Below, piece by piece: positions 3,156 through 17,559 of a stretch of DNA of 23,616 bases; positions within the stretch are counted from its first letter, which is position 1; every line of letters starts with the position of its first letter. Made by a program: the position numbers and the translations under genes. The stretch covers positions 1 to 23,616 of IMG/VR virus record IMGVR_UViG_3300050821_010683; one strand, written 5' to 3'. The notes under the pieces were generated by a model. It searched no databases and was not told where the DNA came from. It saw nothing but the letters and a program-made list of their open reading frames with translations. The DNA is from a virus.

Positions 3156-3449
3156 ATGACCACCATCACCGCGGTGCTACTCCTCCTCGGCACCTGCCTT
3201 GCCGGCTTCGGCACCTTCACCTTCCTTGCCTGCGCCACCACCAGCCCCGATCGCGAAACCCTGCGTCTTACCTGGCTCGCCGCCCGCTACGGACGCCGCG
3301 CCGCCACAGCCGGCCTTGCCCTGTGGCTCGCTGCGTGGCCCACCACCGGCGCCATCTTCACCTTGCTGCTCCTCGCCGCCGCCTGCACGGCGACGGCCTC
3401 ACACATCACCCGCGGAGCCCCCGAGCTGATGCGGAGGACCCCGGTATGA
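3156..3449 (+). CDS. Small membrane protein of the transfer operon (Spd-like by position)
   Basis: A 97-residue protein starting at ATG 3156 behind AGAGGAG. Residues 4-26 (ITAVLLLLGTCLAGFGTFTFLA) form a clear transmembrane helix. A basic loop (RLTWLAARYGRRAA) is followed by one long or two short hydrophobic helices (residues about 52-83). The overall pattern is two to three membrane spans with little outside the bilayer. Its stop overlaps the start of the DUF2637 gene (ATGA), so the two are probably made together. Small hydrophobic proteins encoded next to the DNA translocase are the usual spread (Spd) proteins of Streptomyces plasmids; this identity is by context, not by sequence match. Confidence 0.7.
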   Translation: MTTITAVLLLLGTCLAGFGTFTFLACATTSPDRETLRLTWLAARYGRRAATAGLALWLAAWPTTGAIFTLLLLAAACTATASHITRGAPELMRRTPV

Positions 3450-4489
3450 CCGCTTCAGCGAATCTGAACATTGCTGCCGTCACGATAGGAGATAAGGTGG
3501 ACCCGGGCTTGGGGCCAAAGAACCCGACGATCGGGAAGGATCGCCGGGTTGCTTTGCCGCACGCGATCTCAGGAATCAGCGTGGACACGCCCCAAGGTAA
3601 AGCAAAGAAGCGCGACAAGAACAGCGCGCCCGCACCCGCAATCCCCAAAGAAGCGATCCGCGACTCCCGTATTGGCGGGACCGTTGCCCTCTTTTGCGCA
3701 GCTGCCATCTCCGCACAAACCCTGTTCGCTCTCGGACGCCTCATCGGCCTGTCTGCCTGGACCGCGTGGCTGCTGCCCGCTGCCCTTGACGTGTATGCCA
3801 TGACCGCCACCCGGGTCGCGTTCCAGGTGCCGGTCAGCCACGACGCGCGGAACAAGGCGATCTGGAACGCCCGCGTCGCGCTGTTCTTCACGATCTCCAG
3901 CAACTGCCTGTATCACGCCATGCACCTTGCCGCCGGCCACCACCGCTGGACCCCCGCCGACTGGGCACTCGTCGGCGTGTCCGCGCTCCCGCCGATTGTT
4001 GTGGAGCGGCTGCTGCACTTGCAGTCGATCGTGAACACCGGTGGTGCGCCCGTTGCAGTGGAAGCGGAAACCGGAAATTGGAAGCCTTCCACTCCCACTT
4101 CCACTTCCAACGGCGCCGAGCGGCAGCCGGCGCCGGAAGCATCCGCATCCGCTACCGCTTCCAAACCGCTTCCGAAAGCCGCCCCGAATGGAAGCCCTGC
4201 CGTCTCCAGCCGAACCCGACCGGCCGCATCCACTGCAAGCCGGCATGCCGCATCCGGGCCGATCCCCATCCAGCGTGCTGCCCGGCTCGAAGTCGTCCGC
4301 GACTGGATCGCCAATACCGGCGGCGACAAGGAAGCCGTGCCGCTGAAGGAGATCCAAGAACGCTTCGGCGTGTCCCAGGCGACCGCTTCCCGCATGCGCG
4401 CCGAGGCCGCAGAACTGCCTTCAAAGCCTGCGTCGCAGTCCGAACAGGGCGCCGACGAGGAGCCTGAACGAGCGCTGGAGGCTGTCTGA
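3446..4489 (+). CDS. DUF2637/SpdB-like membrane protein with C-terminal HTH
   Basis: A 347-residue protein. I chose ATG 3446 (overlap with the preceding stop); the frame is open further upstream but would run through the neighbour gene. Residues 1-75 are polar. About 77-192 contain four hydrophobic helices with LLPAALDVYAMTATR in the second, the arrangement and conserved Asp of DUF2637 proteins found in Streptomyces transfer regions. A long Ser/Pro/Ala linker (about 195-280) follows, and residues about 300-320 (IQERFGVSQATASRMRAEA) form a helix-turn-helix. Known SpdB-type proteins help plasmid spread between mycelial compartments and interact with the TraB pump. The HTH could bind element DNA at the membrane. 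The linker-coding DNA carries a cluster of GCTTCC-type hexamers. The stop and the next start overlap as TGATG. Confidence 0.8.
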   Translation: MTASANLNIAAVTIGDKVDPGLGPKNPTIGKDRRVALPHAISGISVDTPQGKAKKRDKNSAPAPAIPKEAIRDSRIGGTVALFCAAAISAQTLFALGRLIGLSAWTAWLLPAALDVYAMTATRVAFQVPVSHDARNKAIWNARVALFFTISSNCLYHAMHLAAGHHRWTPADWALVGVSALPPIVVERLLHLQSIVNTGGAPVAVEAETGNWKPSTPTSTSNGAERQPAPEASASATASKPLPKAAPNGSPAVSSRTRPAASTASRHAASGPIPIQRAARLEVVRDWIANTGGDKEAVPLKEIQERFGVSQATASRMRAEAAELPSKPASQSEQGADEEPERALEAV

Positions 4490-5192
4490 TGACGCGACAC
4501 GACGCGGAGATCTTCGACGAAGTCACCGAAGATTTTCGGTGGAGCAGCGGCCACGAGGTGAGTCGCGTCATTCCTGGATCTGCCCCCCAAAGGGCTGACG
4601 CAGATGACTTGACCTGGCCTTCTGCCGTCTACCCGGGCCCCGGCGTGGGCTACGACACGCTAAGCCAACACGGTCAGCTCACCTTGAACGCACTCCTGGC
4701 CCCCGACCTGCCCCGGCCCATGAACGCCGCCTGGACCAAGTGGCCCGGGTGGCAGTACGTATGGCCCGGTGCCCTCACTCTCGGCTGGTCCGGACTTGGA
4801 TTCTGGGCTCACAGCGAGCCGCTGCACCCGCTGTTCGCCGCCGGTTTTGGGCTGACTGGCACAGCTCTGATGGCGCTCGGCGCGCTCGGCATCGCTGCGA
4901 GTAACACGGGGAAGCGGGACGCGGAAGACCATCCGGCCGACACCGCCGGAACCCGCTCCCTCCTCGGTCTCGGCGGCGCCGCATGGGCCGGGGCTTCCGC
5001 TTCCGGCGCCGGCTTCTCCGGTATCGGATGCATGCTCGCTTTCGGGAGCCTTGGTGCTGCATACCTCGCCGCAAGCGGATGGAAGCATCTGCGGCGTCAC
5101 AACGCCATCCGCGCCGTCATCGACTACGCATCCGCTTCCAACCCCGGCCCGCTTCCATCCGGCGGCCTTCCGTTTCCATCCTTCGCGCTTCC
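4059..5192 (+). repeat. Cluster of GCTTCC/GGAAGC hexamers in both orientations
   Basis: Fourteen copies start at about 4060, 4080, 4135, 4157, 4168, 4190, 4330, 4385, 4993, 4999, 5081, 5134, 5151 and 5187. Half extend to GCTTCCA/TGGAAGC. GCTTCCATCC at 5151-5160 has an exact reverse complement at 5077-5086. A rough estimate from base composition is about one copy per 1.1 kb counting both strands; the rest of the window holds only scattered copies. The copies fall mainly in DNA encoding low-complexity linkers of the DUF2637 protein and the translocase. This is consistent with DNA-level binding sites, for example for the translocase or the HTH protein. Confidence 0.5.
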
Positions 5193-6693
5193 GGAAAACC
5201 GGCTGCCGCCCAACCCGTATGAGCACCGGCTGTCCCAGGCGCTGTCCGCGATGAAGATCGAGGGAGTTTGGTTCGGATCGCCGATGAAGGTTGCCGAGGA
5301 CACATGGCGGCTGCCATTCGAGCTGCCGTCCGGCGCGAACTTGTCCCCAGAGAAGTTGGCGACGAAGGCTGAGGTCATCAAGAGCAACGCCAAGGCACGG
5401 CGCATCGAGGTCGAGCCCACCTACGGTGCCCGCGGCACCATCACCGTCTACGACGGCCCGGACCGCACCCACGAGGACTACCCGTGGGACGGCGTCATGG
5501 CCACCACCGTGGAGAAGCCGTTCTTTTCCGCTATTGACGACGCCGGCCGCGATACGAGAACTGACTTCCGTGAGCACAAGCTCATCACCGGGCGTACTCG
5601 AATGGGCAAGTCGGCCTACCTGAAGTACCTGATTGTGAAAACCCTGGAATGCCCCATCGTTCGTATCGGGATCGACTGCAAGGATGGCGCCCCCGGTCTG
5701 GGAATGTTCGAGCCGGTGCTGTACCGGCTCGCGAACGACCCGATGGACGGGTTGCGCATTCAGTATGGCGTCAAGGCGATTGCCGCCGGCCGTGGTCGGC
5801 GAATGCGTGAGCGCGGCATCGACGAGTGGGACCTGACCGAAGGCCCGCGCATCATTGTGATCATCGATGAGCTGGCCGAGTTGACGTTGCGCTACCCGAA
5901 GTACGCGCCGCCGATCCTGAAGTCGAACCTGGCCCTGGTTGCCGCGTCGAAGATCACGTATGTGGTGGCGACACAGACGCCGTCCGGGCCGGTTTTCGGC
6001 CCCAATACCGACGCCCGTCACCAGTTCGGCGAGCACACCGCGTTCCGCGGCGAAAAGGAGGTCAGTCGCATGCAGTTCGGTGCCACTGCCGAGAGGGACG
6101 GCTTCTGTGTGGACCAGATCGACGGCGTCGGGAAGTTCCTGGTGAAGTCGCTGGCCTATCCGCGGCCCTACACGCGCAAAGCCCCGTTCGTGCACCGCGA
6201 CACCGCGGTGGAGTACGTGGAGCGCTACGCCGGCCGGGTAGAGGAGTTGGACTCGATGGCCGCCGAGGACTTCGAGGCGGGAATGGTGGCCTTCGACGAA
6301 GCGCTGGCCGCCGGCCAGGACCCGCTGGAAATGTTCGAGCCGCCGCCCGCGGGCGGCGGAGGCGGACGCCGTACCGATTCAGTTGTTGACTCGGCGCAGG
6401 CGGAGGAGCGCCGCCGAGGTTTTCGGCTGATCACGAACTATCCGGGCACGGACGAGGTGATCGAGCTGAAGCACCTGGCGCTGTGGAACCTGCTCGGCGA
6501 ATACGGCAGCGACGGAACCACAGCTATGGAACTGGCTGCCAAGCAGCTCGATGGCTTTACCTCCGAGTCGAATGTGCGCAAGCAACTGCGCGCCTGGGAC
6601 GCCCGCGGGTTCATTACGTCGGTGAAGGACGGCCGCGCCGAACGGTGGTGGCGTATCGACGTCGTTGACGAGCCGACCCGAAAGGACGCTTGA
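4489..6693 (+). CDS. FtsK/SpoIIIE/TraB-type DNA translocase with membrane segments
   Basis: A 734-residue ATPase. The N-terminal third has hydrophobic segments at about 85-110, 112-139 and 155-198, anchoring it in the membrane. The motor domain carries Walker A GRTRMGKS (368-375, K374), Walker B IIVIIDELAEL (D460-E461) and an ATQTPSG segment (494-500) after the sensor strand, as in FtsK/SpoIIIE and the Streptomyces Tra proteins. The C-terminal about 90 residues (LALWNLLGEYG to ERWWRIDVV) look like a winged helix, the position of the DNA-reading gamma domain. In Streptomyces plasmids a single such hexameric pump moves double-stranded DNA between mycelia. It starts one base into the previous stop, so it is coupled to the DUF2637 gene. 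A chromosome-type FtsK is excluded by size and neighbours. That it acts in conjugation rather than virion packaging is inferred; a separate large terminase is present at 16114. Confidence 0.88.
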   Translation: MTRHDAEIFDEVTEDFRWSSGHEVSRVIPGSAPQRADADDLTWPSAVYPGPGVGYDTLSQHGQLTLNALLAPDLPRPMNAAWTKWPGWQYVWPGALTLGWSGLGFWAHSEPLHPLFAAGFGLTGTALMALGALGIAASNTGKRDAEDHPADTAGTRSLLGLGGAAWAGASASGAGFSGIGCMLAFGSLGAAYLAASGWKHLRRHNAIRAVIDYASASNPGPLPSGGLPFPSFALPENRLPPNPYEHRLSQALSAMKIEGVWFGSPMKVAEDTWRLPFELPSGANLSPEKLATKAEVIKSNAKARRIEVEPTYGARGTITVYDGPDRTHEDYPWDGVMATTVEKPFFSAIDDAGRDTRTDFREHKLITGRTRMGKSAYLKYLIVKTLECPIVRIGIDCKDGAPGLGMFEPVLYRLANDPMDGLRIQYGVKAIAAGRGRRMRERGIDEWDLTEGPRIIVIIDELAELTLRYPKYAPPILKSNLALVAASKITYVVATQTPSGPVFGPNTDARHQFGEHTAFRGEKEVSRMQFGATAERDGFCVDQIDGVGKFLVKSLAYPRPYTRKAPFVHRDTAVEYVERYAGRVEELDSMAAEDFEAGMVAFDEALAAGQDPLEMFEPPPAGGGGGRRTDSVVDSAQAEERRRGFRLITNYPGTDEVIELKHLALWNLLGEYGSDGTTAMELAAKQLDGFTSESNVRKQLRAWDARGFITSVKDGRAERWWRIDVVDEPTRKDA

Positions 6694-7265
6694 TGGCCGC
6701 GAAGAAGCGACGGCGTAAGAAGCCCGGCCTGTTGTGGCGGGTCCTGTTCGGACATAACGGCCCGACCCGCGGCGAGCTGAAGAAGCTGCTGGGCCTAACG
6801 TTCAGCAAAACCTTCACGCTGAACGTCCGCGACCCGGCAACCGGGCGCGTCCAGAAGAAGCGGATGCGCATCGGCGACGATAACCGGATCCAAGAGGTGA
6901 AGCCGCCGGCGAAGAAGAAGTCCTCGGCGGCGAAGCGGGCGGCAGCGAAGAAGACGACCGCGCGGCGGGCTACTTCAAAGGCGTCGAAGCCGTCGCGCAC
7001 CTCGAAGTCCGGCACCACTCAGCGCAGGCAAACGCAACCGGGCGCCGCTCCGGCGCACCGCCGTGCGAAGTCGGTGCCGCTGGCTGAGCGGGTGCGCCGC
7101 AACCCCGACGGCACGCTCAACGGCTCCCACCGCGATCCGGCCACGCAGGAACGCCAGCGGTACGCCCAGGCCCAGCGGGAGTACGCACAGGCGATGAAGA
7201 ACGCGGCAGCGGCTTCGAAGCGAGCCGAGGAGTTGCTCGGATGGAAACCGCCTGGGGCCCGATGA
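6693..7265 (+). CDS. Very basic, histone-like Lys/Ala/Arg-rich protein
   Basis: A 190-residue protein. ATG 6693 overlaps the preceding TGA; a TTG three bases earlier is the other option. It opens with KKRRRKK, has a short folded-looking segment (residues about 25-65) that includes LKKLLGLTFSKTF, then a long tail of AAKK/KKTTARR/SKPSRTSKS repeats resembling histone H1 or the tails of actinobacterial HU-like proteins. It ends in a predicted helix (QAQREYAQAMKNAAAASKRAEELLG). The charge predicts nucleic-acid binding. Being the last gene of the translocase operon, it may coat or present the transferred DNA. No known family is certain. Confidence 0.7.
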   Translation: MAAKKRRRKKPGLLWRVLFGHNGPTRGELKKLLGLTFSKTFTLNVRDPATGRVQKKRMRIGDDNRIQEVKPPAKKKSSAAKRAAAKKTTARRATSKASKPSRTSKSGTTQRRQTQPGAAPAHRRAKSVPLAERVRRNPDGTLNGSHRDPATQERQRYAQAQREYAQAMKNAAAASKRAEELLGWKPPGAR

Positions 7266-7439
7266 AGGCAACAGGAAACCCCTGCAAACTATGGCGATCT
7301 AGGACGTATTACAGCATACTGATTCTCAGAGCACGAAGAAGGGCCGGCCGTCTTGGCGGACGACCGGCCCGGAGAGTGGAAGCCCTGCCAGGCCCGCACT
7401 CTCGATCCCCAACGGACTACACCCGTAGGAGACACCACC
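7266..7439 (+). promoter_or_regulatory. Intergenic leader with less G+C-rich patch and a 12-bp hairpin
   Basis: This 174-base gap separates the translocase operon from the RapZ-like gene. Bases about 7270-7335 are visibly richer in A+T than the surroundings and include a small GTAT/ATAC inverted repeat (about 7306-7319), a plausible place for a promoter, although I cannot find a convincing -35/-10 pair. It is followed by an imperfect 12-bp stem, 7341-7352 with 7359-7370 (11 of 12 pairs, 6-base loop) and no T-run. The Shine-Dalgarno for the next gene is TAGGAG at about 7426-7431. Confidence 0.35.
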
Positions 7440-7898
7440 ATGATGTCGAACCCTGACTCGCGCGTCGATACCGGCGAGGTCCGCACCGTCATCACCACCG
7501 CAGGCGAACTGCACGACCCGCTGCCGGAATGCACCGCGCCCGTCACTTTCGTGGATTTGCGCACCGCGCTGCGGAACCCCGCCGACGATCCCACGATGAT
7601 CGACATGACCGGGCTGGACGCGAAAGTCCGCGATCATGTCCTGAACACCCCCGGTGCGCAGCAGATCATCGAAGATGTTGTTGGCCGCCTCCTCGCCGCC
7701 TACGCCTGGACCGGCGCCACCGGACGCCGCCAAGACGTACTGATCATCTGTATGGGCGGACGCCACCGGTCAGTCGCCATCGCCGAAGCCATCGCCGCCC
7801 GGCTGCGCTCCCTTGGCCACGGCGTCGAAGTCGAGCACCGCGACATTGACAAGCCTGTAAAACCCAAGAAGCAGGCACTGCCGTCTGTCGTTGCCTGA
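7440..7898 (+). CDS. Free-standing RapZ C-terminal-domain-like protein
   Basis: A 152-residue protein. ATG 7440 is chosen for its Shine-Dalgarno TAGGAG eight bases upstream; a longer form would start at a TTG inside the hairpin. The core CMGGRHRSVAIAEAIAARL (from C104) followed by VEVEHRDI matches the signature of the RapZ C-terminal domain, which in full-length RapZ reads C-T-G-G-x-H-R-S and later H-R. The N-terminal P-loop kinase-like domain of RapZ is absent. In enterobacteria this domain binds small RNAs and signals cell-envelope precursor status; in actinobacteria RapZ lies next to WhiA. VTFVDLRTALRNP at about residues 34-46 also matches the family's opening strand and Asp-Leu-Arg. What the solo version does in mobile elements is not known to me. 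Confidence 0.75.
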   Translation: MMSNPDSRVDTGEVRTVITTAGELHDPLPECTAPVTFVDLRTALRNPADDPTMIDMTGLDAKVRDHVLNTPGAQQIIEDVVGRLLAAYAWTGATGRRQDVLIICMGGRHRSVAIAEAIAARLRSLGHGVEVEHRDIDKPVKPKKQALPSVVA

Positions 7899-7909
7899 CC
7901 GGTGGGTAT

Positions 7910-7934
7910 CAGCGGCGAACGTGTATCGCCGCTG
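7910..7934 (+). promoter_or_regulatory. Hairpin in the 5' leader of the 8017 gene
   Basis: A perfect 8-bp inverted repeat CAGCGGCG/CGCCGCTG (7910-7917 with 7927-7934, 9-base loop) starts 12 bases after the RapZ-like stop. No T-run follows. It could be a weak terminator or a leader structure; the 118-base gap holds no other clear signal. Confidence 0.35.
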
Positions 7935-8016
7935 GCGCCGACCGGTCGGACCAGCCGGTCAAACCCGCGGGTTCCACCAAACGCCCGCGTCCATCCGTTA
8001 CAGAGGAGGAAGCAAG

Positions 8017-8202
8017 ATGCCAGACGAAAACGGCTTCATGACGAAGCAGGAAAAGAAGGAACGGCTGCAGCGCCTGACTGCCGAGGCCGAGGCTTGCGGC
8101 AATGCTGCTGTCTTCGCATCCGGTGGAGATACCGGAGTGAGTTCGGAAATCCGCAGGTCGGCGCAGGACCGCTACTGGAGAAATATCGCGCCTACTCGGT
8201 AG
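8017..8202 (+). CDS. Small hypothetical protein
   Basis: A 61-residue protein with one of the best Shine-Dalgarno sequences in the window (AGAGGAGG, 8002-8009) seven bases before ATG 8017. The first half is a Lys/Glu-rich helix (MTKQEKKERLQRLTAEAEA) and the remainder is polar. The open frame continues upstream to 7891, but that extension crosses the leader hairpin and is rejected. It is the last gene before the intrinsic terminator. No function is recognised. Confidence 0.65.
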   Translation: MPDENGFMTKQEKKERLQRLTAEAEACGNAAVFASGGDTGVSSEIRRSAQDRYWRNIAPTR

Positions 8203-8220
8203 ATGCTCCGGGGGCAGTCG

Positions 8221-8254
8221 AGGCCCGGACCGTGTTACGGTCCGGGCCTTTACT
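8221..8254 (+). terminator. Intrinsic terminator closing the plasmid-like half
   Basis: A perfect 12-bp stem (AGGCCCGGACCG, 8221-8232, with its complement at 8238-8249) and a 5-base loop TGTTA, followed by TTTACTCTT. It begins 18 bases after the previous stop. This is the clearest transcriptional boundary in the window and falls between the transfer-type genes and the phage-type genes. Confidence 0.85.
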
Positions 8255-8373
8255 CTTGCGCGCGTATCATCTGATCAATCTGCCGACCAGCGAAAGACCG
8301 CCATCCAGCACTGGTCGCCACACGGCACACCCACGCCGCACCCCTAGCGTAGATCACGCCAAGAGGAGCCGCG
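8255..8373 (+). promoter_or_regulatory. Leader of the second gene block
   Basis: After the terminator there are about 120 bases before GTG 8374, so a promoter is expected here. A TAGCGT at 8345-8350 resembles a Streptomyces -10 hexamer, but no good -35 lies 16-19 bases upstream. CTGATCAAT near 8270-8280 is the only less G+C-rich patch. The Shine-Dalgarno AGAGGAG is at about 8362-8368. Confidence 0.3.
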
Positions 8374-9099
8374 GTGAACAATGCCCCCATCCCGACCGCA
8401 TGCCCCGGACCATGCTCCGCAGCGTGGCGCCGTGCCGAAGCCGAACGCCTCGCCAACGGCACACCCCACCAACTCACGCCCCGCGCCGGCAACCCCGTAT
8501 GGTGCGAACCTTGCGCCCGGCACCTGCGTTCCGAGCTCGCCGACTTCCCCGAACTTGCCGCACGGCTCCTGCTCGAAGTTGAGAACGCCACCACCGCCAG
8601 CACCGAACACGTATCAGGCTCGCGCGAACGGCCCATCCACGGGCGTGAAAAGTACGTGTTTTGCATCGACGACATCGTCGCGGTCCTCACCTACTGGGCA
8701 GAAGCGATCCGTGAAGACCGCGACCTGGCCCCGCCGCCGGCCAGGCGTCCCCGCGGTGCCGCCATCACCGCCGACACCCGGCTGCTGCTCATTCACTTCG
8801 ACTGGATGATGGCCGAACACCCGGAACCGGCGCAGTCCACAGAGTTCGGGAACGACGTCTTCCGACTTCACCGCCACGCCGCCCGCCTTACTCGCACCGA
8901 CGACGTCCGCGCCAAGCGCTGCGACGGCATTCCGTGCAGGCAATGCGATTTGGTGACGCTCGAACGCGAACTCGACTGGCAGGGCCGCGCCACCGGCTAC
9001 GTTCTGTGCCGCAGTTGCGGCACGCTCCTGAAGGAAGACGAGTACGAACGCTGGGTCAAGCTCGCCGCGCAGCCGTTCAAGAAGCGGGCTGCGGCGTGA
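8374..9099 (+). CDS. Zinc-ribbon protein of actinophage type, function unknown
   Basis: A 241-residue protein starting at GTG 8374 behind AGAGGAG. Two metal-binding regions frame a helical middle. The first is at the N-terminus (C10, C14, C44 and C47: ACPGPC and WCEPC). The second is a classic zinc ribbon near the C-terminus (C188-x2-C191 and C212-x2-C215: CRQC and CRSC). I recognise this layout, with a CPGPC-type start, from proteins encoded just before a small HTH gene in Streptomyces phages and prophages, but no function is established there to my knowledge. It overlaps the next gene by four bases, so the two are probably co-translated. A DNA- or RNA-binding role is possible. Confidence 0.75.
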   Translation: MNNAPIPTACPGPCSAAWRRAEAERLANGTPHQLTPRAGNPVWCEPCARHLRSELADFPELAARLLLEVENATTASTEHVSGSRERPIHGREKYVFCIDDIVAVLTYWAEAIREDRDLAPPPARRPRGAAITADTRLLLIHFDWMMAEHPEPAQSTEFGNDVFRLHRHAARLTRTDDVRAKRCDGIPCRQCDLVTLERELDWQGRATGYVLCRSCGTLLKEDEYERWVKLAAQPFKKRAAA

Positions 9100-9344
9100 A
9101 CATCGACCCTGCGGACCCGCTGTGCCGACCCATCAGCATCGCCGACGCCATGGCCCGCACCGGCCGGTCGCGCCGCACCATTGACCGGTGGATCCACGAT
9201 GGGCAACTGCGTGTTGTCCGGCTCGAAAACCCGCCCGAGGACGTACTGATCGAGCGGGAAGTGGTGACGCTGGAGAAAGCGCGCCGGGATGGCCGCCGCC
9301 GCGGCCGGCCGCCGAAAGACTCGCCCGAGATTGCATCGAGTTGA
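9096..9344 (+). CDS. Small HTH DNA-binding protein with C-terminal AT-hook
   Basis: An 82-residue protein from GTG 9096, overlapping the preceding stop (GTGA). Residues about 13-38 (SIADAMARTGRSRRTIDRWIHDG) form a helix-turn-helix of the excisionase/MerR-like group. A wing (LRVVRLENP) and a basic C-terminus follow, in which RRRGRPPKD contains the AT-hook core R-G-R-P (69-72). A small HTH of this kind may act as a recombination directionality factor or a transcriptional regulator. No integrase is visible nearby, so regulation is the simpler guess. The palindrome at its own stop codon is a candidate operator. Confidence 0.8.
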   Translation: MNIDPADPLCRPISIADAMARTGRSRRTIDRWIHDGQLRVVRLENPPEDVLIEREVVTLEKARRDGRRRGRPPKDSPEIASS

Positions 9345-9354
9345 CGCAGGTCAA
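9341..9354 (+). promoter_or_regulatory. Palindrome TTGAC-N4-GTCAA, candidate operator/-35 region
   Basis: A perfect 5-bp inverted repeat with a 4-base spacer overlaps the stop codon of the HTH gene. TTGACG at 9341-9346 could also be a -35 hexamer, but no good -10 lies at the usual distance; TATCTT at 9375-9380 is too far. The local AT-rich stretch CAAAACTTT follows. Location and symmetry suggest a binding site controlling the genes after 9457, possibly for the HTH protein itself. Confidence 0.4.
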
Positions 9355-9409
9355 AACTTTGGCGATCCTGTTCCTATCTTCGGTGCGGAGTGCCGGGGAG
9401 AGGATCCTC

Positions 9410-9436
9410 AAGCCCACCAGCATCCGGTGGGCTTTC
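9410..9436 (+). terminator. Intrinsic terminator or attenuator upstream of the 9457 gene
   Basis: A perfect 9-bp stem AAGCCCACC/GGTGGGCTT (9410-9418 with 9426-9434) with a 7-base loop and a following TTC. It sits after the HTH gene and its palindrome and 20 bases before the next start. It can end the 8374-9344 transcript or act as an attenuator in the leader of the following genes. Confidence 0.7.
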
Positions 9437-9456
9437 GTGCTTCCCAGGGAGGTGCG

Positions 9457-9887
9457 ATGCAGCACCATACCGTGCAGCAGATCGATCGTGGACCCCGCAC
9501 CGGGAAGTGGATCTACACCGGCGGCAACCGCCGCATCGGACGCCACGCCGAATGCTGCTCCGAGGCATGGCTGGAGATGCTCCAGACCCCTATTGAGCAG
9601 CGCGACGACAGCCCCGCATGGGACCGCATCGGGCACGACACCGAAGCCGAGGCCTACGCCCACATGCGCAGCCGGCTGCTGGAGAAGCTGCGCCTGGACA
9701 CTTCGTTCGGCGACTGGTCCGGCTGCCGTGCGCCGCTGAAGAACGGCAGCCTCTGCGACACCCCACCAAATTCGGCGCCAACATCCCGCCTTGCCATTTC
9801 CTTCACCCGCTGTGCGACGAGCACCGCACCCGAGAGGTGGTCGAGACGATGTGGGACGGCCCCGGCGACTGGTCAGGATCGTGGTGA
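9457..9887 (+). pseudogene. Cys/His-rich small protein gene with an apparent frameshift at 9761-9764
   Basis: The ATG at 9457 has a strong Shine-Dalgarno (AGGGAGG). The frame reads sensibly for about 102 residues to KNGSLCDTP. It then continues open, but with Ser/Arg/Thr-rich shadow-like composition, through to 10056. The -1 frame from the CCCC run at 9761-9764 instead gives a natural continuation, TKFGANIPPCHFLHPLCDEH, with metal-ligand-type Cys/His spacing, and stops at 9885-9887 four bases before the next start. The simplest reading is a gene of about 143 codons that has lost one C in a homopolymer, through mutation or sequencing error. A real fusion to the downstream membrane protein, or programmed slippage, is less likely because no canonical slippery heptamer is present. 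Confidence 0.6.
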
Positions 9888-9891
9888 GCTG

Positions 9892-10636: not shown

Positions 10637-10646
10637 CCCACGCCGT

Positions 10647-10700: not shown

Positions 10701-10717
10701 TACCTACTGGAGTACCC

Positions 10718-10990
10718 ATGCCCGCCATGAAGGCCGCCCTCGACGAGATCAAGAAGATCGCCAACGAACTCGAAGCCGAAGGCCACAAGCTCGGCGCGAC
10801 GCTGAAGGCGTGGGTGGAGAAGCTCACCGGCGAAGCCCCGGTCGTCGAAGCCGAGGTGAAGACCGACGCCGAACAGGTCGCCAAGGACGCCGCCGAGGCC
10901 GAGGCGCCGGTCGCCGCTGAGGTGATGCAGGACGTGGCGGCGGTCGCCGATCATGCCGTGACCGGCGTGACGGAGAAGCCTGCGTCGTGA
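10718..10990 (+). CDS. Acidic Ala/Glu-rich helical protein
   Basis: A 90-residue protein, almost entirely helix-forming, with Lys/Glu heptad-like stretches (LDEIKKIANELEAEGHKLGATLKAW) then EVKTDAEQVAKDAAEAEAP. ATG 10718 follows TGGAG; ATG 10727 is an alternative. It resembles small coiled-coil proteins common in phages, without identifiable function. Its stop overlaps the next GTG start (GTGA). Confidence 0.6.
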   Translation: MPAMKAALDEIKKIANELEAEGHKLGATLKAWVEKLTGEAPVVEAEVKTDAEQVAKDAAEAEAPVAAEVMQDVAAVADHAVTGVTEKPAS

Positions 10991-11325
10991 CCGAGCAGAC
11001 CCCCAGCGTCGGACGCATCGTCCACTACGCCTCGTTTGGCTCTGCGGGCGGCGAGTACACCAAGCAGTGCCGCGCCGCCATCGTGACTGAAGTCGGCGCG
11101 TGGGTCACCGTCGAGGCAACAAAGCCCGACAGCTACAGCACCAGTGAGGGTCGTCCGATCAGGACGCTGGAGCAATGGTTCTACGACGACGCGCTCGCGC
11201 TGACCGTTTGCAACCCGACCGGTCTGTTCTTCAACGGCGCCGGCCCGGTGGCGTGCAAGCACGACGAACCGTCCGACGGCCACGTTCCGGCAGGCGGCAC
11301 CTGGCACTGGCCGGAGCGGACGTGA
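10987..11325 (+). CDS. Conserved actinophage hypothetical protein
   Basis: A 112-residue beta-rich protein starting at GTG 10987, coupled to the gene before. It begins GRIVHYASFGSAGGEY, has CRAAIVTEV, and ends NPTGLFFN followed by GGTWHWPER. I recognise this opening and ending from a recurrent small protein of actinobacterial phages near structural genes. Its function is unknown to me. No signal or membrane segment. The stop overlaps the following GTG. Confidence 0.7.
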   Translation: MTEQTPSVGRIVHYASFGSAGGEYTKQCRAAIVTEVGAWVTVEATKPDSYSTSEGRPIRTLEQWFYDDALALTVCNPTGLFFNGAGPVACKHDEPSDGHVPAGGTWHWPERT

Positions 11326-11564
11326 CCGCCGAGCGTCCAAAGGTCCGCATTATTCACCCCGGCGGCCCCGCCACAATGGCGCAGGTCTGGATTGACGATC
11401 ACCAACTGACCTGCGTGACACGCGTCGAGATCGCGCCCCTCGATGTAGACAGCCGCGGACCCGTCATGGCGACGCTGACCGTCATCGATCCCGAGATCGC
11501 GCTGGAAGCCGAGCTTGCCGAGCTTTACGTTCGCGAACTCCCGACAGAGACGGCTGGGCCGTGA
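11322..11564 (+). CDS. Small beta-rich hypothetical protein
   Basis: An 80-residue protein from GTG 11322 (GTGA overlap). Upstream in-frame sequence is Arg-rich shadow and was excluded. It is mostly strands: KVRIIHPGG, AQVWIDDHQL, VTRVEIAPLD, PVMATLTVIDPEI. This pattern resembles small phage proteins that carry a single beta-barrel and are encoded beside the 10987-type gene. No function assigned. Confidence 0.65.
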   Translation: MTAERPKVRIIHPGGPATMAQVWIDDHQLTCVTRVEIAPLDVDSRGPVMATLTVIDPEIALEAELAELYVRELPTETAGP

Positions 11565-11746
11565 ACGACGATAAGGCCAGTGAAACCAGCAACGAGATCC
11601 AGGACCCGCTGTCGGCGCTGGCGATGGCCGCCACCGCGGCGCACGTCATGTTCCAGTCCTATGTCGAAGCTGGCTTCAACGAGCAGCAGGCGCTGTACCT
11701 CACCGCGCAGGTGCTGACCGCGAGCATGCGCGGACCGCAGAGCTGA
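11561..11746 (+). CDS. Small helical hypothetical protein
   Basis: A 61-residue protein from GTG 11561, coupled to the previous stop. After a polar start it forms two helices: PLSALAMAATAAHVMFQSY and FNEQQALYLTAQVLTASM. The second, with a conserved-looking GFxxxQAL turn, resembles short phage helical proteins of unknown function. It ends ten bases before the next gene, and GAGGAG just after its stop serves as the Shine-Dalgarno there. Confidence 0.6.
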   Translation: MNDDKASETSNEIQDPLSALAMAATAAHVMFQSYVEAGFNEQQALYLTAQVLTASMRGPQS

Positions 11747-11755
11747 GGAGTCCCG

Positions 11756-12304
11756 GTGTCGCCGAACGAGACCGTGTTCGTCCGCGACGAAGCCGCCTCC
11801 TCGTGGCCGTCGGCCGGGCTGTACGGCGTCGTCAAGACGCACGGACTGATCCCGTGGATCATTCGCAGGGCTACTTCCGGGTGGGCCGATCATGCCTTCG
11901 TCATCCTTGAGGACGGCGCGATTGTCGAAGCCGAGCCCGGCGGTGTCCGGCTCGGGCACCTGTCCGAGTACTACGGGTGCAGGATCGCGGTCAACTCCGC
12001 CGAGGAGATGACCGTCGCCCAACGGACCACCGTCGCGGCAACCGCCAAGACGATGATCGGGAAGCCGTACAACGACCTGGCGATCGCCGACGACGGGCTG
12101 GAATGCCTCGGCTGGCACTGGCGGTGGCTGCTAAAGCGGGCGTCCGGTGACGGCGAAGTCGTGTGCTCCCAGATGGTTGCCTTGTGCGGCCAGGCCGCCG
12201 GTCTCAACTGGCGCGGCGGAGCGGCCAGCAATACCGAGACCACGCCAGCGATGCTGGCTCGACGCCCGGTCATGCAGCCCTGGACCTACCCAGCCAGCAT
12301 CTGA
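11756..12304 (+). CDS. Permuted NlpC/P60 (YiiX/papain-like) hydrolase-type protein
   Basis: A 182-residue protein starting at GTG 11756 behind TGAGGAG. The motif order is circularly permuted relative to ordinary NlpC/P60: WADHAFVI (H46) comes first, then the acidic AIVEAEP (E58/E60), then GKPYNDLAI, and finally the likely nucleophile VVCSQMVAL (C137). This matches the YiiX-like permuted papain-fold group. Such enzymes act on peptide, amide or lipid linkages. In a phage a peptidoglycan or virion-associated role is possible, but no cell-wall-binding domain or signal peptide is present. Placement just upstream of probable virion-surface genes is compatible with a tail- or head-associated hydrolase. 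Fold: fairly sure; substrate: unknown. Confidence 0.65.
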   Translation: MSPNETVFVRDEAASSWPSAGLYGVVKTHGLIPWIIRRATSGWADHAFVILEDGAIVEAEPGGVRLGHLSEYYGCRIAVNSAEEMTVAQRTTVAATAKTMIGKPYNDLAIADDGLECLGWHWRWLLKRASGDGEVVCSQMVALCGQAAGLNWRGGAASNTETTPAMLARRPVMQPWTYPASI

Positions 12305-12328
12305 ACCACCATCACGAAAGACACCACC

Positions 12329-12559
12329 ATGACCACCGAGATCGCGATGACCACCTGGGTAGTCACATACAACGACTACGCCTCATCCGTCGGCGGCGTA
12401 CCGGTCGCAGCGCGTGTTGAAGTCGACGCCGCCTACTACGCACCGGCAGACCACCTCATCGAGTTCAAGGACTCCGATCACCAGGTCGTCTTCGCGCTGC
12501 ACGCCGGGATCATCTCCACGATCCGCCGCGGTGACGTGAAGCTGAAGCCGAGCGAATGA
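12329..12559 (+). CDS. Small beta-rich hypothetical protein
   Basis: A 76-residue protein from ATG 12329, preceded by GAAAG. It has alternating strands (TWVVTYNDYA, ARVEVDAAYYA, HLIEFKDSDHQVVFALHA, IISTIRRGDVKL). The last part resembles a small phage beta-barrel whose final strand forms the V-F-x-L and I-x-x-I-R-R pattern. An internal ATG at 12347 is an alternative start. It overlaps the next gene by four bases (ATGA). Confidence 0.6.
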   Translation: MTTEIAMTTWVVTYNDYASSVGGVPVAARVEVDAAYYAPADHLIEFKDSDHQVVFALHAGIISTIRRGDVKLKPSE

Positions 12560-12813
12560 CCCTCACCGGCCGCGCCGCGCAGCAGCACCCAGACGTCGAC
12601 ACTCTCGCGCCCGTCACCATCGCCGTCGCCACCCACAGCATCACCCCCGACAGCTACGGCGACCAGCAGCGGCAATCCACCGGCGCCGGCCGAGCCGACG
12701 TCCTCGGGCTCGTCGACCCCGAAACCGGCGCCTACCGATCCGCCGCAAACACGATCAGCGAGGCCGACCGCCGCGCCCTCAAGCTGCGGCGCAACGGACG
12801 ACCGCGCAGATAG
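12556..12813 (+). CDS. Small hypothetical protein
   Basis: An 85-residue polar protein from ATG 12556 (ATGA overlap). It contains VTIAVATHSITPDSYGD, a Gly/Ala/Asp loop, then a basic C-terminal helix (EADRRALKLRRNGRPRR). The very basic tail could contact nucleic acid. Not recognised. Confidence 0.55.
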   Translation: MTLTGRAAQQHPDVDTLAPVTIAVATHSITPDSYGDQQRQSTGAGRADVLGLVDPETGAYRSAANTISEADRRALKLRRNGRPRR

Positions 12814-12830
12814 CCGACAGGGGGTCCGGC

Positions 12831-13121
12831 ATGGGCGCGGCACCAGACGGAACCACCATCATCACCGTCCCCAACGCAGACGGCACCGGACCCACCGTCA
12901 CCGTGCTCCACGACCCCGTGACCGGCACGCTCGCTGAGCCGGTCGCCATCACCGTTGAGCACGCGACGGCCCACATCGGCATCCGCCACGCCGACGGCAC
13001 CACAACCCGATGGAGCTGCCTACCCGGCGCCCACATCACCGCCGCGGCGCTGGCAGAGAACGCCGGCATCACCAGCATCGACCACATCGACGCCGTCACC
13101 GTCTCCGCAGTGCCGTCGTGA
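12831..13121 (+). CDS. Small beta-rich hypothetical protein
   Basis: A 96-residue protein from ATG 12831 with a GGGGG ribosome-binding site about 12820. Its strand-rich sequence includes GTTIITVPNADG, TVTVLHDP, VAITVEHATAHIGIRH and an Ala-rich helix before ITSIDHIDAVTVSAV. The pattern of short strands divided by D/G/N turns suggests a small virion or adaptor protein, but no family is identified. The stop overlaps the GTG start of the next gene. Confidence 0.6.
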   Translation: MGAAPDGTTIITVPNADGTGPTVTVLHDPVTGTLAEPVAITVEHATAHIGIRHADGTTTRWSCLPGAHITAAALAENAGITSIDHIDAVTVSAVPS

Positions 13122-13810
13122 CGTTCGCGCGGGTTCAGAACGCGGTCAACAACAACAACGGCGCAAGCCTGACCGTCACGTTCAGCGCCGCGCCCACCGC
13201 CGGGAACCTCCTGGTCGCCTGGGCCAACTCGAACGCCACCGTCACCATCGGCGGCACCGGCTGGACCGCCGGGCCGTCCGTCATCGACGGCAACGGCGCC
13301 TACTTCTGGTGGAAAGTCGCAGGCTCATCCGAGCCGTCCTCGGTCACGTTTACGCCGTCGGTCAGCGACAACGTCAGCGCCGGACTGCTGGAGTACTCCG
13401 GCAACACCGCCACCCCGCTGGACGCCTCCTCGTCCTCCATGCACTCCGGCGGCGCCGTATCGTCAACCACCGCAGTGTCAGTCACCACCACCGCGGCACA
13501 CGACCTTGGGATCGCCGCCGGCCTGCTGCACAACTCCAGCGCCCAGCCGTCCGCGCCCACCGCGCCGACATGGACCAACGGCTGGAGCAACATCCAATCG
13601 CAGGGCGCGGTGCCCGGCAGCTTCATCGTCTACTCCTTCGTCGGCGACAACCTCGACCTCGGCGCTGCCGGCTCGGTGTCGACCGCCGTGTCCTGGACCG
13701 GCGGGACCTGGCTCGACGCGCAGGAACTCCTGATGACCTTCACTGCCGCAGCCACGCCGGCCGGGCAGTGGACGCCACAGATCATCACCCCGAACCAGGG
13801 CTTCATCTGA
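13118..13810 (+). CDS. Beta-sandwich probable virion-surface protein
   Basis: A 230-residue protein from GTG 13118 (GTGA overlap). A longer in-frame form from 13010 has Arg/His-rich shadow sequence and is rejected. Composition is Ser/Thr/Ala/Gly-rich with repeated strands: LTVTFSAAPTAGNLLVAWAN, TVTIGGTGWTAG, YFWWKVAG, SSVTFTPS, AGLLEYSG, SVTTTAAHDLGIAAGL. The AGNLLV segment followed by GWT is recurrent in phage and bacterial surface beta-sandwich proteins. A decoration, fibre or receptor-contact role is likely; the exact location on the virion is not shown. No signal peptide, as expected for a virion protein. Confidence 0.65.
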   Translation: MTFARVQNAVNNNNGASLTVTFSAAPTAGNLLVAWANSNATVTIGGTGWTAGPSVIDGNGAYFWWKVAGSSEPSSVTFTPSVSDNVSAGLLEYSGNTATPLDASSSSMHSGGAVSSTTAVSVTTTAAHDLGIAAGLLHNSSAQPSAPTAPTWTNGWSNIQSQGAVPGSFIVYSFVGDNLDLGAAGSVSTAVSWTGGTWLDAQELLMTFTAAATPAGQWTPQIITPNQGFI

Positions 13811-13838
13811 GCCCGCAGCGCAAGAAGGCGACGCACCG

Positions 13839-14060
13839 ATGACCCACATTGAGATCAACCACCGCGACGCCCACGAGGTCACCCCCGTCATCCACATCGG
13901 CGGCAACCAGCAGTACGGCATCCACCAGGTCACGATCCGCATGACCGGCGACCACACCGGCGAGAACGCGGTCGCCCCGACCGTCGAGATCGTCACCGAC
14001 GACGGACGGACCCTGACCGGCCGGGTGTCCCGCCTCGACCTGCTTGCCGAACAAGGCTGA
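13839..14060 (+). CDS. Small beta-rich hypothetical protein
   Basis: A 73-residue protein from ATG 13839 after a 28-base gap. It contains THIEINHRDAHEV, IHIGGNQQYGIHQVTIRMTGD and a final strand pair (TVEIVTDDGRTLTGRVSRL). It is His-rich in the first half. The family is unknown; its position between two probable surface proteins suggests a structural or assembly role. Confidence 0.55.
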   Translation: MTHIEINHRDAHEVTPVIHIGGNQQYGIHQVTIRMTGDHTGENAVAPTVEIVTDDGRTLTGRVSRLDLLAEQG

Positions 14061-14128
14061 CCCGCCCCACGGCCCGTTGCCGGGCTCCGTGCCGCCCCGC
14101 TCCTGCTTCATGAGAGAGGAGGAGCGTC

Positions 14129-14629
14129 GTGGCACGCTTCTTCACCACCGTTGAATCCGCTTCCGCGCTGCCCGCGACCGCGCCGTCCGGCGCCACCGCC
14201 AACGCGCTGTTCGGCAACCTCGTCGCCGGCGCCAACGCCGGATACAAGATGCGACGCCTCACCCTCGGCGTGCGCGCCGGCGCGAGCGTCCCGACCAGCC
14301 AGCAGCTCACTGTTGCCATCGTGCGGACCACCGCGCGCGGCACCGCAACGGCCACCAACGCGCCAAAGGCGATGGACCCGAACTCGCTGCAGACGTCATC
14401 GATCATCGGCATGGACACGGCCTGGTCCACGGTCCCGACGGCGACGTGGACGGCGCCGTACTTCTGGGAGGAGTCGTTCAACTCCCAGTCGGGCTTGGAC
14501 CTGCCCTTCGAGTTGATCGAGGAACTGATCTGCCCGGTCGGCACCGCCAACGGCCTGGCGTTCCTGAACGTCGGCAACGCGGTGCCGACCGGGCACATCT
14601 ACACCCTTACCTGCGAAACCGACGAGTAA
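14129..14629 (+). CDS. Probable virion structural protein
   Basis: A 166-residue protein starting at GTG 14129 with a strong AGAGGAGGAG Shine-Dalgarno (about 14114-14123). It is Ala/Thr-rich with beta character: MARFFTTVESASALPATAPSG, GYKMRRLTLGVRAG, QQLTVAIVRTTARG, then WTAPYFWEESFNSQSGLDLPFELIEELICP and a final HIYTLTCE strand. The high-level Shine-Dalgarno agrees with an abundant product. I recognise this kind of protein from head/tail-surface genes of actinophages, but cannot give a precise name. Confidence 0.6.
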   Translation: MARFFTTVESASALPATAPSGATANALFGNLVAGANAGYKMRRLTLGVRAGASVPTSQQLTVAIVRTTARGTATATNAPKAMDPNSLQTSSIIGMDTAWSTVPTATWTAPYFWEESFNSQSGLDLPFELIEELICPVGTANGLAFLNVGNAVPTGHIYTLTCETDE

Positions 14630-14672
14630 GGATCTTCCGACGCTGAAGCCCTGAGACTGACAGGGGCACCGA

Positions 14673-15014
14673 ATGCTTCGCCGCTGGCGCGCCGCCACCC
14701 CACGCCACTCCCGACGGTTCGAACCGGTATGGCATCAGCCCACCCCGCCGCCAGCGCTGCTGGCGCGAGCCGGAACGTCCGGCCGAGCGGCGACCAGGCC
14801 CCGCCGCGGCGTCATCCTCCCGGTGGTCGCCGCGCCGCCCGTGTCGCCGGTATGGATCGCACCCATGACCACCGGACGTCGGCCGTTGCCCTTCGTCGCA
14901 CGCCGCCCCCGCATGCTGCCGTTCCCGCTCGGCAGCTTCGGCCCGCACGAAACCCTGTGGCGCCTCGGCACCCCCGGCAACGGCTGGCAGTTCGGCACCC
15001 CCGTCATCAGCTGA
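14673..15014 (+). CDS. Small basic Pro/Arg-rich protein
   Basis: A 113-residue protein from ATG 14673. The first two-thirds are Arg/Pro-rich and low complexity. The last 25 residues (ETLWRLGTPGNGWQFGTPVIS) resemble the LGTP...W...GTP element seen in small phage proteins next to this type of gene. Shadow-frame composition at the N-terminus makes the exact start uncertain. It stops 14 bases before the next gene. Confidence 0.5.
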   Translation: MLRRWRAATPRHSRRFEPVWHQPTPPPALLARAGTSGRAATRPRRGVILPVVAAPPVSPVWIAPMTTGRRPLPFVARRPRMLPFPLGSFGPHETLWRLGTPGNGWQFGTPVIS

Positions 15015-15028
15015 CCGGGAGGAAGCCG

Positions 15029-15355
15029 ATGGCCAACCAGTCCGTCCTGTCCACCCGCTACTGCCAGGTACGGGTCCTCGCTACCCTCCCCGACGGCACC
15101 GCCTACAACCCCACCGCCGACACCGTGCAGATGGCTTTCATGGCTAAACCACCCGACAACGTCCCCGGCAGCGGCGACTGGCACCCCGGCTCGTGGGCGA
15201 CCATAGGCAACGGCGCGTACTTCGCACAGTGTCTCGTCGGGCCCACCAACGGCGGAGTCGTCCTCACCGAAGGCGTCTACTCCGTGTGGGTGCGGATCAT
15301 CGACAACCCAGAGGTGCCGGTCGAGCCCGTCGGGGAACTCACCATCAGTCCCTAA
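15029..15355 (+). CDS. Probable virion-associated small beta protein
   Basis: A 108-residue protein from ATG 15029 with GGGAGGAAG upstream. Earlier in-frame codons (from 14729) have shadow composition and overlap the preceding gene. It contains LSTRYCQVRVLATLPDGTAYNPTADTV, AFMAKPPDN, GDWHPGSWATIGNGAYFAQCLVGP and VYSVWVRIIDNPEVPVEPVGEL, the pattern of phage proteins that carry one immunoglobulin-like or fibre-neck domain. It is the last gene before the terminase block. Confidence 0.6.
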   Translation: MANQSVLSTRYCQVRVLATLPDGTAYNPTADTVQMAFMAKPPDNVPGSGDWHPGSWATIGNGAYFAQCLVGPTNGGVVLTEGVYSVWVRIIDNPEVPVEPVGELTISP

Positions 15356-15380
15356 CGCAACCGCAACCAGGGGGTGAGCG

Positions 15381-16094
15381 TTGAGGAACCCGGACAAGAA
15401 GCAGTGCACAGGCGTCACCGCGAGCGGCGAACCCTGCCAGCTTTGGGCCAACGACGGCGAACTGTGCGCCCACCACAACGGCACCTGGATCGCTGACGGC
15501 CGGCGCTGCACAGCAACCATCACCGGCGGCACCACACGGCAGGAGCACCGCGGCGAGCCCTGCAAGAACCCGGCGATGAGAGGCCAGAAGGTCTGCGCTG
15601 CACACGGCGGCCGGGCACCCCAGAATCGTCGCGCCGCAACGGCCCGGCTCATGGAAGAGGAAGGGCGGCGCATCTTGGCTGCCTACGGCGGTTCCCTGGA
15701 AATCAGCGCCACCGAAGCGCTCCTCAACGAGGTCTGCCGCACCGCCGGCCACGTCGAGTGGCTGTCCCAGAGGGTTGCCGAGCTCGAAAACGGCGAGCTG
15801 ATCTGGGGTACCACCCGCATCAAAGAGGGCGGCCAGGACGGCGGCACCACCCAGGAAGCCGAAGCCCACATGTGGCTGAAGCTGTACAGAGAAGAGCGCG
15901 CCCACCTCGTGCGCGTCTGCTCCGAGGCGATCCGCTGCGGCATCGAAGAGCGGTACGTAAGGATGGCCGAGTCTCAAGGCGCCCTGGTCGCCGATGCCAT
16001 CAAGGCGATCCTCGAAGACCTGAAGCTGACGTCGGAGCAGCAGCAACTCGCCGCGAACGTCGTGCCGATACGGCTGCGGCAGCTCACTGCCTGA
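15381..16094 (+). CDS. Terminase small subunit with Cys/His N-terminus
   Basis: A 237-residue protein starting at TTG 15381 behind AGGGGGTGAG; no in-frame ATG or GTG precedes it. The N-terminus has two zinc-knuckle-type clusters: C9, C19, C29 with H31/H32, and C43, C61, C72 with H75 (ending CAAHGGRAPQNRRAA). This is followed by a helical domain (ALLNEVCRTAGHVEWL) and a C-terminal helix (DAIKAILEDLKL). I recognise this layout from small terminase subunits of Streptomyces phages. It recognises the packaging site on phage DNA and recruits the large subunit, encoded directly downstream. Family identity is good; sequence specificity cannot be judged. Confidence 0.75.
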   Translation: MRNPDKKQCTGVTASGEPCQLWANDGELCAHHNGTWIADGRRCTATITGGTTRQEHRGEPCKNPAMRGQKVCAAHGGRAPQNRRAATARLMEEEGRRILAAYGGSLEISATEALLNEVCRTAGHVEWLSQRVAELENGELIWGTTRIKEGGQDGGTTQEAEAHMWLKLYREERAHLVRVCSEAIRCGIEERYVRMAESQGALVADAIKAILEDLKLTSEQQQLAANVVPIRLRQLTA

Positions 16095-16113
16095 CCCAGC
16101 ACCTGGGGGCGCG

Positions 16114-17538
16114 GTGACCGTGACCGTGCCGTGGGCCGAATACGCCGCCCGCATCTTCGAAGACGTCCCGCCGCCAAAGTGGCGCGACATAGCCCGCCCC
16201 GAACAACTCCCCCCTGACGGCGCATGGCTCGTTTGGGCATACGTTGCAGGTCGCGGCGCAGGGAAGACCAGATCAGCCGCCGAATGGGTTCACGAGAAGG
16301 CCGTGAGCCAGCCCGGGATCCGCATCGCGCTGGTCGGACGCACGCCGGCAGACGTCCGCGACGTCATGATCGAAGGCGAATCCGGGATTCTCGCCATCGC
16401 CGGCGACAAGAAGCCCATCTACCAGTCCACCAAACGGCGACTCACCTGGCCAAACGGATCCAGCGCCCACACCTACTCGGCAGAGGTCCCCGCCCAGCTT
16501 CGTGGACCCCAGCACCATTTCGCCTGGGCAGACGAGCCCGCAGCGTGGACTGACGCACCCAAGGGCGACTCGCTGGACACGGCCTGGAACAACTTGATGC
16601 TGGGGCTACGACTCGGCACCTCGCCAGGATGCGTGTTCACCACCACGCCCAAGCCGAACGCCCTCATTCGTACCGTCCTGAACCGGGCGACCACCATCGT
16701 TACCCGCGGATCCACCTACGATAACCTCGCGAACCTCGCCCCGGCATTCCGCGAGGAAGTCCTCGCCACCTACGAGGGCACACGCATTGGCCGGCAGGAA
16801 CTACTCGGCGAACTCCTCGAAGACGTCGAAGGCGCCCTGTGGACCATCGCGAACCTCGACGAGGACCGCATTGCTCACGCCCCCGAGATGCGCCGGATTG
16901 TTGTCGCGGTCGACCCCTCCGGCGCATCCGGGCCGAACAGCGACGAGCAGGGCATCGTCGTCGCCGGCCTCGGAATCGACGGCGGCCTGTACGTTCTCGC
17001 CGACCGGTCCTGCAAGCTGAGCCCCCACGGCTGGGCATCCCGTGCAGTGGGCGCCTACCACGAGTTCTCCGCGGACCGGATCGTCGCCGAGAAGAACTTC
17101 GGCGGCGACATGGTGGAGTCCACCATCCGGCAGGTCGACCCCGATGCTGCGGTAAAGGTCATCTCTGCGTCGCGAGGCAAGTCTCAGCGGGCCGAGCCCG
17201 TGGCGGCCCTGTATGAGCAGCACCGCGTTCACCACGTCGGCGCGCTGCCTCAACTCGAAGACCAGATGACGACCTGGACCCCGCTGGACGGAACGAGTCC
17301 AGACCGCCTCGACGCGCTGGTGTGGGCCATGACGGAACTGACCGACGACTTCAGCGCAGCGGCGTGGATCGAGTACATGAAGCGCAAAGCCGAGTCCGGA
17401 GCGACAGAGGCCGAAGTGCCCTCGCTGGAGGCAGCAGGATCCGATGCCGCCGACGTGTCATCGCAGGACGCACCCGACCCGGTAGACGCCCGTCAGGCCG
17501 CACGCAACGCCGCTTTCCGCGCCCACCAGGGCAGGTAG
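16114..17538 (+). CDS. Terminase large subunit (packaging ATPase-nuclease)
   Basis: A 474-residue protein starting at GTG 16114, with GGGGG about six bases upstream. Walker A is AGRGAGKT (45-52, K51). Walker B is FAWADEP (D140-E141). The RNase H-like nuclease domain shows VVAVDPSG (D267), AEKNFGGD (E326) and DRLDALVWA (D397/D400), all in the usual order for Terminase_6-type large subunits. It threads double-stranded phage DNA through the portal into the prohead and cuts it at the end. Full length and all catalytic residues are intact. It is encoded between the small terminase and portal genes, as in HK97-like siphophages. Confidence 0.95.
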   Translation: MTVTVPWAEYAARIFEDVPPPKWRDIARPEQLPPDGAWLVWAYVAGRGAGKTRSAAEWVHEKAVSQPGIRIALVGRTPADVRDVMIEGESGILAIAGDKKPIYQSTKRRLTWPNGSSAHTYSAEVPAQLRGPQHHFAWADEPAAWTDAPKGDSLDTAWNNLMLGLRLGTSPGCVFTTTPKPNALIRTVLNRATTIVTRGSTYDNLANLAPAFREEVLATYEGTRIGRQELLGELLEDVEGALWTIANLDEDRIAHAPEMRRIVVAVDPSGASGPNSDEQGIVVAGLGIDGGLYVLADRSCKLSPHGWASRAVGAYHEFSADRIVAEKNFGGDMVESTIRQVDPDAAVKVISASRGKSQRAEPVAALYEQHRVHHVGALPQLEDQMTTWTPLDGTSPDRLDALVWAMTELTDDFSAAAWIEYMKRKAESGATEAEVPSLEAAGSDAADVSSQDAPDPVDARQAARNAAFRAHQGR

Positions 17539-17559
17539 TAGGGAGGCGGGTCGGCCTCG

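Follow-up and report, generated by a model that had tools for sequence, protein, structure and literature searches.

Transfer of double-stranded DNA (dsDNA) between Streptomyces mycelia requires only one plasmid protein, TraB, which pumps unprocessed dsDNA (PMC4170104). In plasmid pSVH1, SpdB2 is a DNA-binding protein that also interacts with TraB (PMC4170104). The plasmid-phage pZL12 is reported to replicate, to transfer by conjugation and to have a lytic cycle as a phage (cited in PMC4487206 and PMC3583192). FtsK-like proteins have also been annotated in phages. The authors guessed at 'DNA segregation' for that of phage P1312 (PMC4569894) and wrote that the protein of phage Geonosis 'might be used during replication' (PMC11536984). 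No link between phage FtsK-like proteins and transfer was found in the literature searched, which left most subscription journals outside, and an earlier proposal may exist. Here a 23,616-base virus fragment from a soil actinophage (IMG/VR record IMGVR_UViG_3300050821_010683; this whole stretch is termed the window) is analyzed. Gene calling gave 39 genes, every one on the + strand. A three-gene membrane module with an FtsK-type ATPase is located at 3156–6693, small accessory genes occupy the 8 kb that follow, and packaging and head genes span 15381–23616. The element is interpreted as a temperate phage of mycelial actinobacteria whose TraB/Spd-like pump would move its dsDNA between hyphae or compartments, a reading that we regard as evenly balanced between right and wrong. 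The membrane module consists of the following genes.

3156–3449, + strand: small membrane protein of 97 amino acids (aa) with 2–3 transmembrane (TM) helices, Spd-like by position (open reading frame and hydropathy; homologues)
3446–4489, + strand: DUF2637 membrane protein, 347 aa, SpdB-like candidate (PF10935, model, profile match)
4489–6693, + strand: FtsK/TraB-like membrane dsDNA translocase, 734 aa (PHROG 1358, AlphaFold model, Foldseek, Walker motifs)

The first two genes overlap by four bases and the second and third by one base, which bears out the overlapping operon of the preliminary description. Homologues of the small protein are found at the same place in two related virus records, G001 (73%) and G002 (54%). 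The DUF2637 protein scores 22.0 bits against PF10935, below the cut-off of 22.8 bits; its relatives score well over the cut-off (66.5 bits in the relative G009). The predicted structure has four long TM helices, a disordered linker and a C-terminal helix-turn-helix (HTH). Its membrane domain matches membrane proteins encoded in the spd regions of two conjugative plasmids, pJV1 and pSN22 (hhalign profile comparison, 95.6%). With four TM helices, a predicted domain of the DNA-binding type and an adjoining ATPase gene, the DUF2637 protein has the build of the SpdB type.

The match of the ATPase to PF01580 is below threshold (18 bits). A sequence search of the PDB with the ATPase gave no match, and a fold search was needed instead. 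The AlphaFold model (mean pLDDT 69) comprises four N-terminal TM helices, an alpha/beta part, a RecA-type motor and a C-terminal winged helix. The best Foldseek matches among solved structures are motors of FtsK (6t8o, E 4.6e-17), along with TcpA, a coupling protein of conjugation. Both Walker motifs, A (GRTRMGKS) and B (IIVIIDE), are intact. The dN/dS ratio is about 0.2 for ftsK and 0.18 for the large terminase (TerL), indicating purifying selection on both. A membrane-anchored FtsK-type motor with intact Walker motifs and a C-terminal winged helix has the architecture of a TraB translocase. The proposal of a TraB/Spd-type module is supported; the ATPase itself lies outside the plasmid TraB clade.

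Downstream of the module, the packaging and head genes are arranged on the same strand.

15381–16094, + strand: small terminase-like protein, directly before TerL (PHROG 3678 E 2e-44, HGGxSTG motif)
16114–17538, + strand: large terminase, the packaging motor (PF03237 E 1e-22, PF17289 E 6e-14)
17560–20670, + strand: portal fused to 2H-phosphoesterase (LigT-like) and Mu F-like domains (PF04860, PF13563 and PF04233 above cut-offs)
20700–21080, + strand: XkdF-type head maturation protease (PF14550 E 5e-9; PHROG 3017)
21077–23080, + strand: scaffold-like protein between protease and capsid (homologous to proteins of G001, G009 and prophage G004; weak PHROG 3017 match)
23179–23616, + strand: major capsid protein, truncated where the window ends (98% identity to the 495-aa protein encoded at this position in G001)

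Domain and PHROG matches together with homology to G001 confirm these assignments. The capsid protein matches PHROG 13692, which has no curated function. With the FtsK-type ATPase and TerL, the element carries two different dsDNA motors, as had been proposed.

G001 (133.8 kb) and G002 (124.7 kb) encode the ATPase at 72–75% identity. Both records look complete because they have exact end repeats (120 and 110 bases, respectively). G001 is an independent contig from an independent metagenome, and window genes 1–39 map onto it in one unbroken order from an anti-sigma-like kinase to the capsid. This includes the region 7200–9500, where the link between the two halves had been considered in need of proof. 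A chimeric assembly of an integrative conjugative element (ICE) and a phage, for which no supporting point was found, is refuted by this collinearity over the whole window and by the same linkage at many other loci; its probability is practically nil.

G002 and the fragment G003 have the pump module in common with the window and a different packaging module (TerL of the PF04466 type). Conversely, the packaging genes of G009 and the Kitasatospora prophage G004 match those of the window, and their ATPases are 25–30% identical to it. Thus, pump and packaging modules recombine freely yet stay adjacent. The module switch corresponds to window positions 12556–16094 and G002 positions 45146–47937, with pump and accessory genes kept in G002 and G003. 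The large terminase of G001 (31134–33590; L009:11137–13590) carries an intein (PF14890), which the window copy lacks. G001 also contains a TnpB/IS605-type transposase gene (5126–6352).

A nine-member ATPase alignment used as query yielded 79 viral loci. Terminase or portal is found downstream of the ATPase on the same strand, at a distance of 2.2–8.7 kb (median 5.3 kb), in 37 of the 62 loci with enough downstream sequence, a lower bound given that TerL and portal were detected by BLAST seeds only. Collapsed at 80% identity, this corresponds to 15 of 32 clusters. A DUF2637-like gene is present at position -1 or -2 of the ATPase in 43/63 loci (21/31 clusters at 80% identity). These calls were made by an iterated hidden Markov model (HMM) whose seed included the pJV1 and pSN22 proteins, Pfam matches alone being weak; as an independent check, Pfam alone finds DUF2637 in 21 of 45 scanned loci. 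The main exceptions to the pairing are Gilgamesh-type phage-plasmids of ~130 kb. The arrangement of pump and packaging genes recurs in many phage loci that are unrelated to each other, and so goes beyond chance. The pairing looks stable and widespread, and its breadth across prophages looks under-recognized.

A search of 50,697 phage genomes with the window ATPase and two relatives gave few matches, namely the Streptomyces phages Gilgamesh and Mischief19, unannotated faecal contigs, and far-diverged proteins of Bacillus and Listeria phages. None of the Gordonia, Mycobacterium, Arthrobacter or Microbacterium phages in this set matched the three ATPases. Per genome the module is uncommon, being found in 3 of 70 Kitasatospora genomes (L216-type query, E 1e-20). 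One Kitasatospora genome (G065) has three related ftsK copies of equal score, near a chromosome end (L237, C1:8485599), on an 865 kb replicon (L240, C2:858886) and on a 93 kb contig (L241, C3:37075), with a terminase ~6 kb away in two cases.

In the plasmid-phage pCQ3 (NC_013449), genes for a protein with four TM helices and HTH and the annotated traA and traB immediately precede those for terminase, portal and capsid, all on one strand. The pCQ3 TraB is 36–37% identical to TraB of pSN22 and pJV1. Its 92 kb relative L208 is syntenic with pCQ3 on both sides of the tra slot (GntR 78%, TerL 62%, portal 65%); at the slot itself, L208 encodes a phage-type ATPase together with a small membrane protein and a protein with four TM helices and HTH. 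Judging from gene order, this suggests that plasmid-type and phage-type pumps are interchangeable, and the shared slot is the strongest sign that both translocases would do the same job. Furthermore, a DUF2637 gene is part of the traA-traB operon in one 15 kb Streptomyces plasmid.

If the module acts as a pump, the DUF2637 protein and the small membrane protein would build a membrane platform or recruit one. The ATPase, presumably a hexamer anchored by its four TM helices, would recognize phage DNA by its C-terminal winged helix. It could then drive the circular phage genome, as a double-stranded copy, through a putative pore in septa or at hyphal contacts, much as Streptomyces plasmids are moved by TraB. 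The data here establish the genes with their overlaps, the motor motifs and fold, the purifying selection, the recurrent packaging linkage and the slot replacement; spread by both virions and transfer appears plausible. The wider proposal concerns phages of ~40–135 kb from several unrelated packaging lineages: many temperate actinophages with mycelial hosts would carry a TraB/Spd-like pump beside their packaging genes and may spread through mycelium as naked dsDNA, with neither lysis nor virions involved, and phage and plasmid pumps would be exchanged in the same slot. We put this somewhat short of an even chance.

Several observations weigh against transfer. The ATPase is about 25% identical to plasmid TraB. 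In the tree, TraB of pCQ3, pJV1, pSN22 and NBC_01506 form a clade of their own (100/100); the phage ATPases fall in clades outside it and are for this reason not classed as TraB. DUF2637-like folds also occur in phages of Gordonia, Rhodococcus and Mycobacterium and in phiC31, so that DUF2637 alone is no marker of transfer. Exact 8-mer clusters and tandem-repeat scans revealed no clt-like repeat cluster near ftsK in the window, G001 or G002, whereas in pSN22 and pJV1 the same scan detects repeats immediately 3' of traB. For pSAM2, likewise, no clt motif is described. Finally, far-diverged FtsK proteins are present in Bacillus and Listeria phages among the 50,697 genomes.

A pump of this kind may instead serve maintenance within one mycelium, where it would move or partition phage DNA across septa and into spores with no transfer between mycelia. 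Spd functions and plasmid stability in Streptomyces are not cleanly separable, as spdB2 stabilizes SLP2 (PMC4170104), and another segregation device would be useful to the two complete close relatives, in which ParA is absent. However, both encode integrases, and once integrated a prophage is passed on as part of the chromosome; moreover, the corresponding slot of pCQ3 holds a TraB homologous to conjugation proteins. Maintenance is considered unlikely. A helper of the lytic cycle or of replication, with the ATPase resolving or moving replicating phage DNA or driving DNA entry through septa during infection, would suit the position of the module just before the late genes and would agree with the published guesses for P1312 (PMC4569894) and Geonosis (PMC11536984). 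Replication, on the other hand, needs no coupling by overlapping genes to a small TM protein and a partner with four TM helices and HTH, and the slot is exchangeable with traA-traB, which makes this role rather improbable.

The C-terminal HTH of the DUF2637 protein could also belong to a regulator, or to a DNA binder of the excisionase kind, that has no relation to Spd; the ATPase would then work without this protein. Two of 45 relatives match PHROG 733 ('excisionase') and Foldseek returns a 'putative excisionase' of a Rhodococcus phage. Four conserved TM helices, the constant adjacency to ftsK and the position beside traB in a plasmid point away from this assignment, to which we give little credence. 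Less probable still is a role in host chromosome handling or host takeover by FtsK-like segregation or dimer resolution. The FtsK fold and winged helix would allow it, but the chromosomal FtsK of Kitasatospora is far from the phage clade in the tree and the motor is coupled to DUF2637 and to packaging genes. Pumping of phage dsDNA between hyphae or compartments remains the preferred reading.

The preliminary description suggested a phage-plasmid. Its structural and packaging genes are indeed those of a tailed phage: the window contains head genes (TerL, portal, protease and capsid) and G001 adds a tape measure and an integrase, as expected for temperate Caudoviricetes. Both complete close relatives encode tyrosine integrases, and a search for ParA in G001 and G002 found none. 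G004 is chromosomally integrated, and its left edge is marked by a serine-recombinase-like gene. For these reasons the designation as a phage-plasmid is not supported, with plasmid Rep families outside the search and the window itself too short for the question, and the element is better described as a temperate, probably integrating actinophage with a transfer-like module. An actinomycete ICE was also considered and rejected; the relatives have integrase and FtsK, but the Prim-Pol replication protein was not found (RepSA and RepAM were not searched). The FtsK query found no close relative in the species genomes; the terminase query instead led to the Kitasatospora host. Over the 21 kb compared, G004 is identical to a prophage within a 1.5 Mb contig of Kitasatospora mediocidica. 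Mycelial actinobacteria as hosts, predicted earlier, fit this prophage and the phage-genome matches. In the unicellular Arthrobacter liuii, a terminase (L125) is 68% identical to that of the window; this genome gave no ftsK match to the window ATPase.

Two of the accessory genes are located next to the module.

6693–7265, + strand: basic Lys/Arg-rich protein overlapping ftsK (homologues near ftsK in relatives)
7353–7898, + strand: RapZ C-terminal-domain protein, conserved accessory (PF22740 E 6e-21; present in G001 and G009)

The Lys/Arg-rich protein probably belongs to the ftsK operon. Its homologue directly follows ftsK in G001 and is separated from it by one inserted gene in G002 and G003. 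A gene for a HATPase_c_2 anti-sigma-factor-like kinase (68–502) is conserved in G001, G002 and G009. A Peptidase C92-like (permuted papain) protein is encoded between pump and packaging genes (11756–12304) and is found in all close relatives. The portal/2H-phosphoesterase/Mu F fusion is a single frame of 1036 aa, similar to fusions of ~1000–1075 aa in G001, G004 and G009. In L025 (9189–14678), a portal homologue lies in an apparent open frame of 1829 aa, perhaps a further fusion or an intein. A promoter and terminator scan gave matches at chance level, and a megablast of the whole window against phages matched 37 bases and nothing more.

If the proposed transfer takes place, a broad set of actinophages would have two routes of infection, by virions and by hyphal contact. 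Prophage DNA would gain a route that needs neither surface receptor nor virion, and the boundary between prophages and conjugative elements would be blurred in antibiotic-producing bacteria.

Elements of the pZL12 type had been named as precedent, which the traA-traB genes before the packaging genes of pCQ3 support; the same gene order contradicts the suggestion that the arrangement might be new. The kind is already known from pZL12 and pCQ3, and the present module varies it. pCQ3, a plasmid of 85 kb, has ParA/ParB and a plasmid-clade traB, whereas the window lacks traA, its ATPase belongs to another clade, and its close relatives measure 125–134 kb and have an integrase but no ParA. Like the TraB/Spd systems of pJV1, pSN22 and pSVH1, the module combines a membrane-anchored FtsK-type ATPase with winged helix and an adjoining protein with four TM helices; unlike their TraB, the motor has ~25% identity, a separate clade and no clt repeats found near the window ftsK. 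ICEs of the pSAM2 type share integrase and an FtsK-type transfer protein with the relatives of the window, but differ from them in the full virion and packaging gene set of the latter and in the Prim-Pol protein. For Thermobifida phage P1312 and Streptomyces phage Geonosis, the likeness is an annotated FtsK-like protein, taken from published descriptions alone. Streptomyces phage Gilgamesh and the ~130 kb Streptomyces plasmids 11x1 and NBC_00536 encode an FtsK-like translocase of the same broad clade (27–28% identity); in these, however, ParA is present and ftsK is not coupled to DUF2637.

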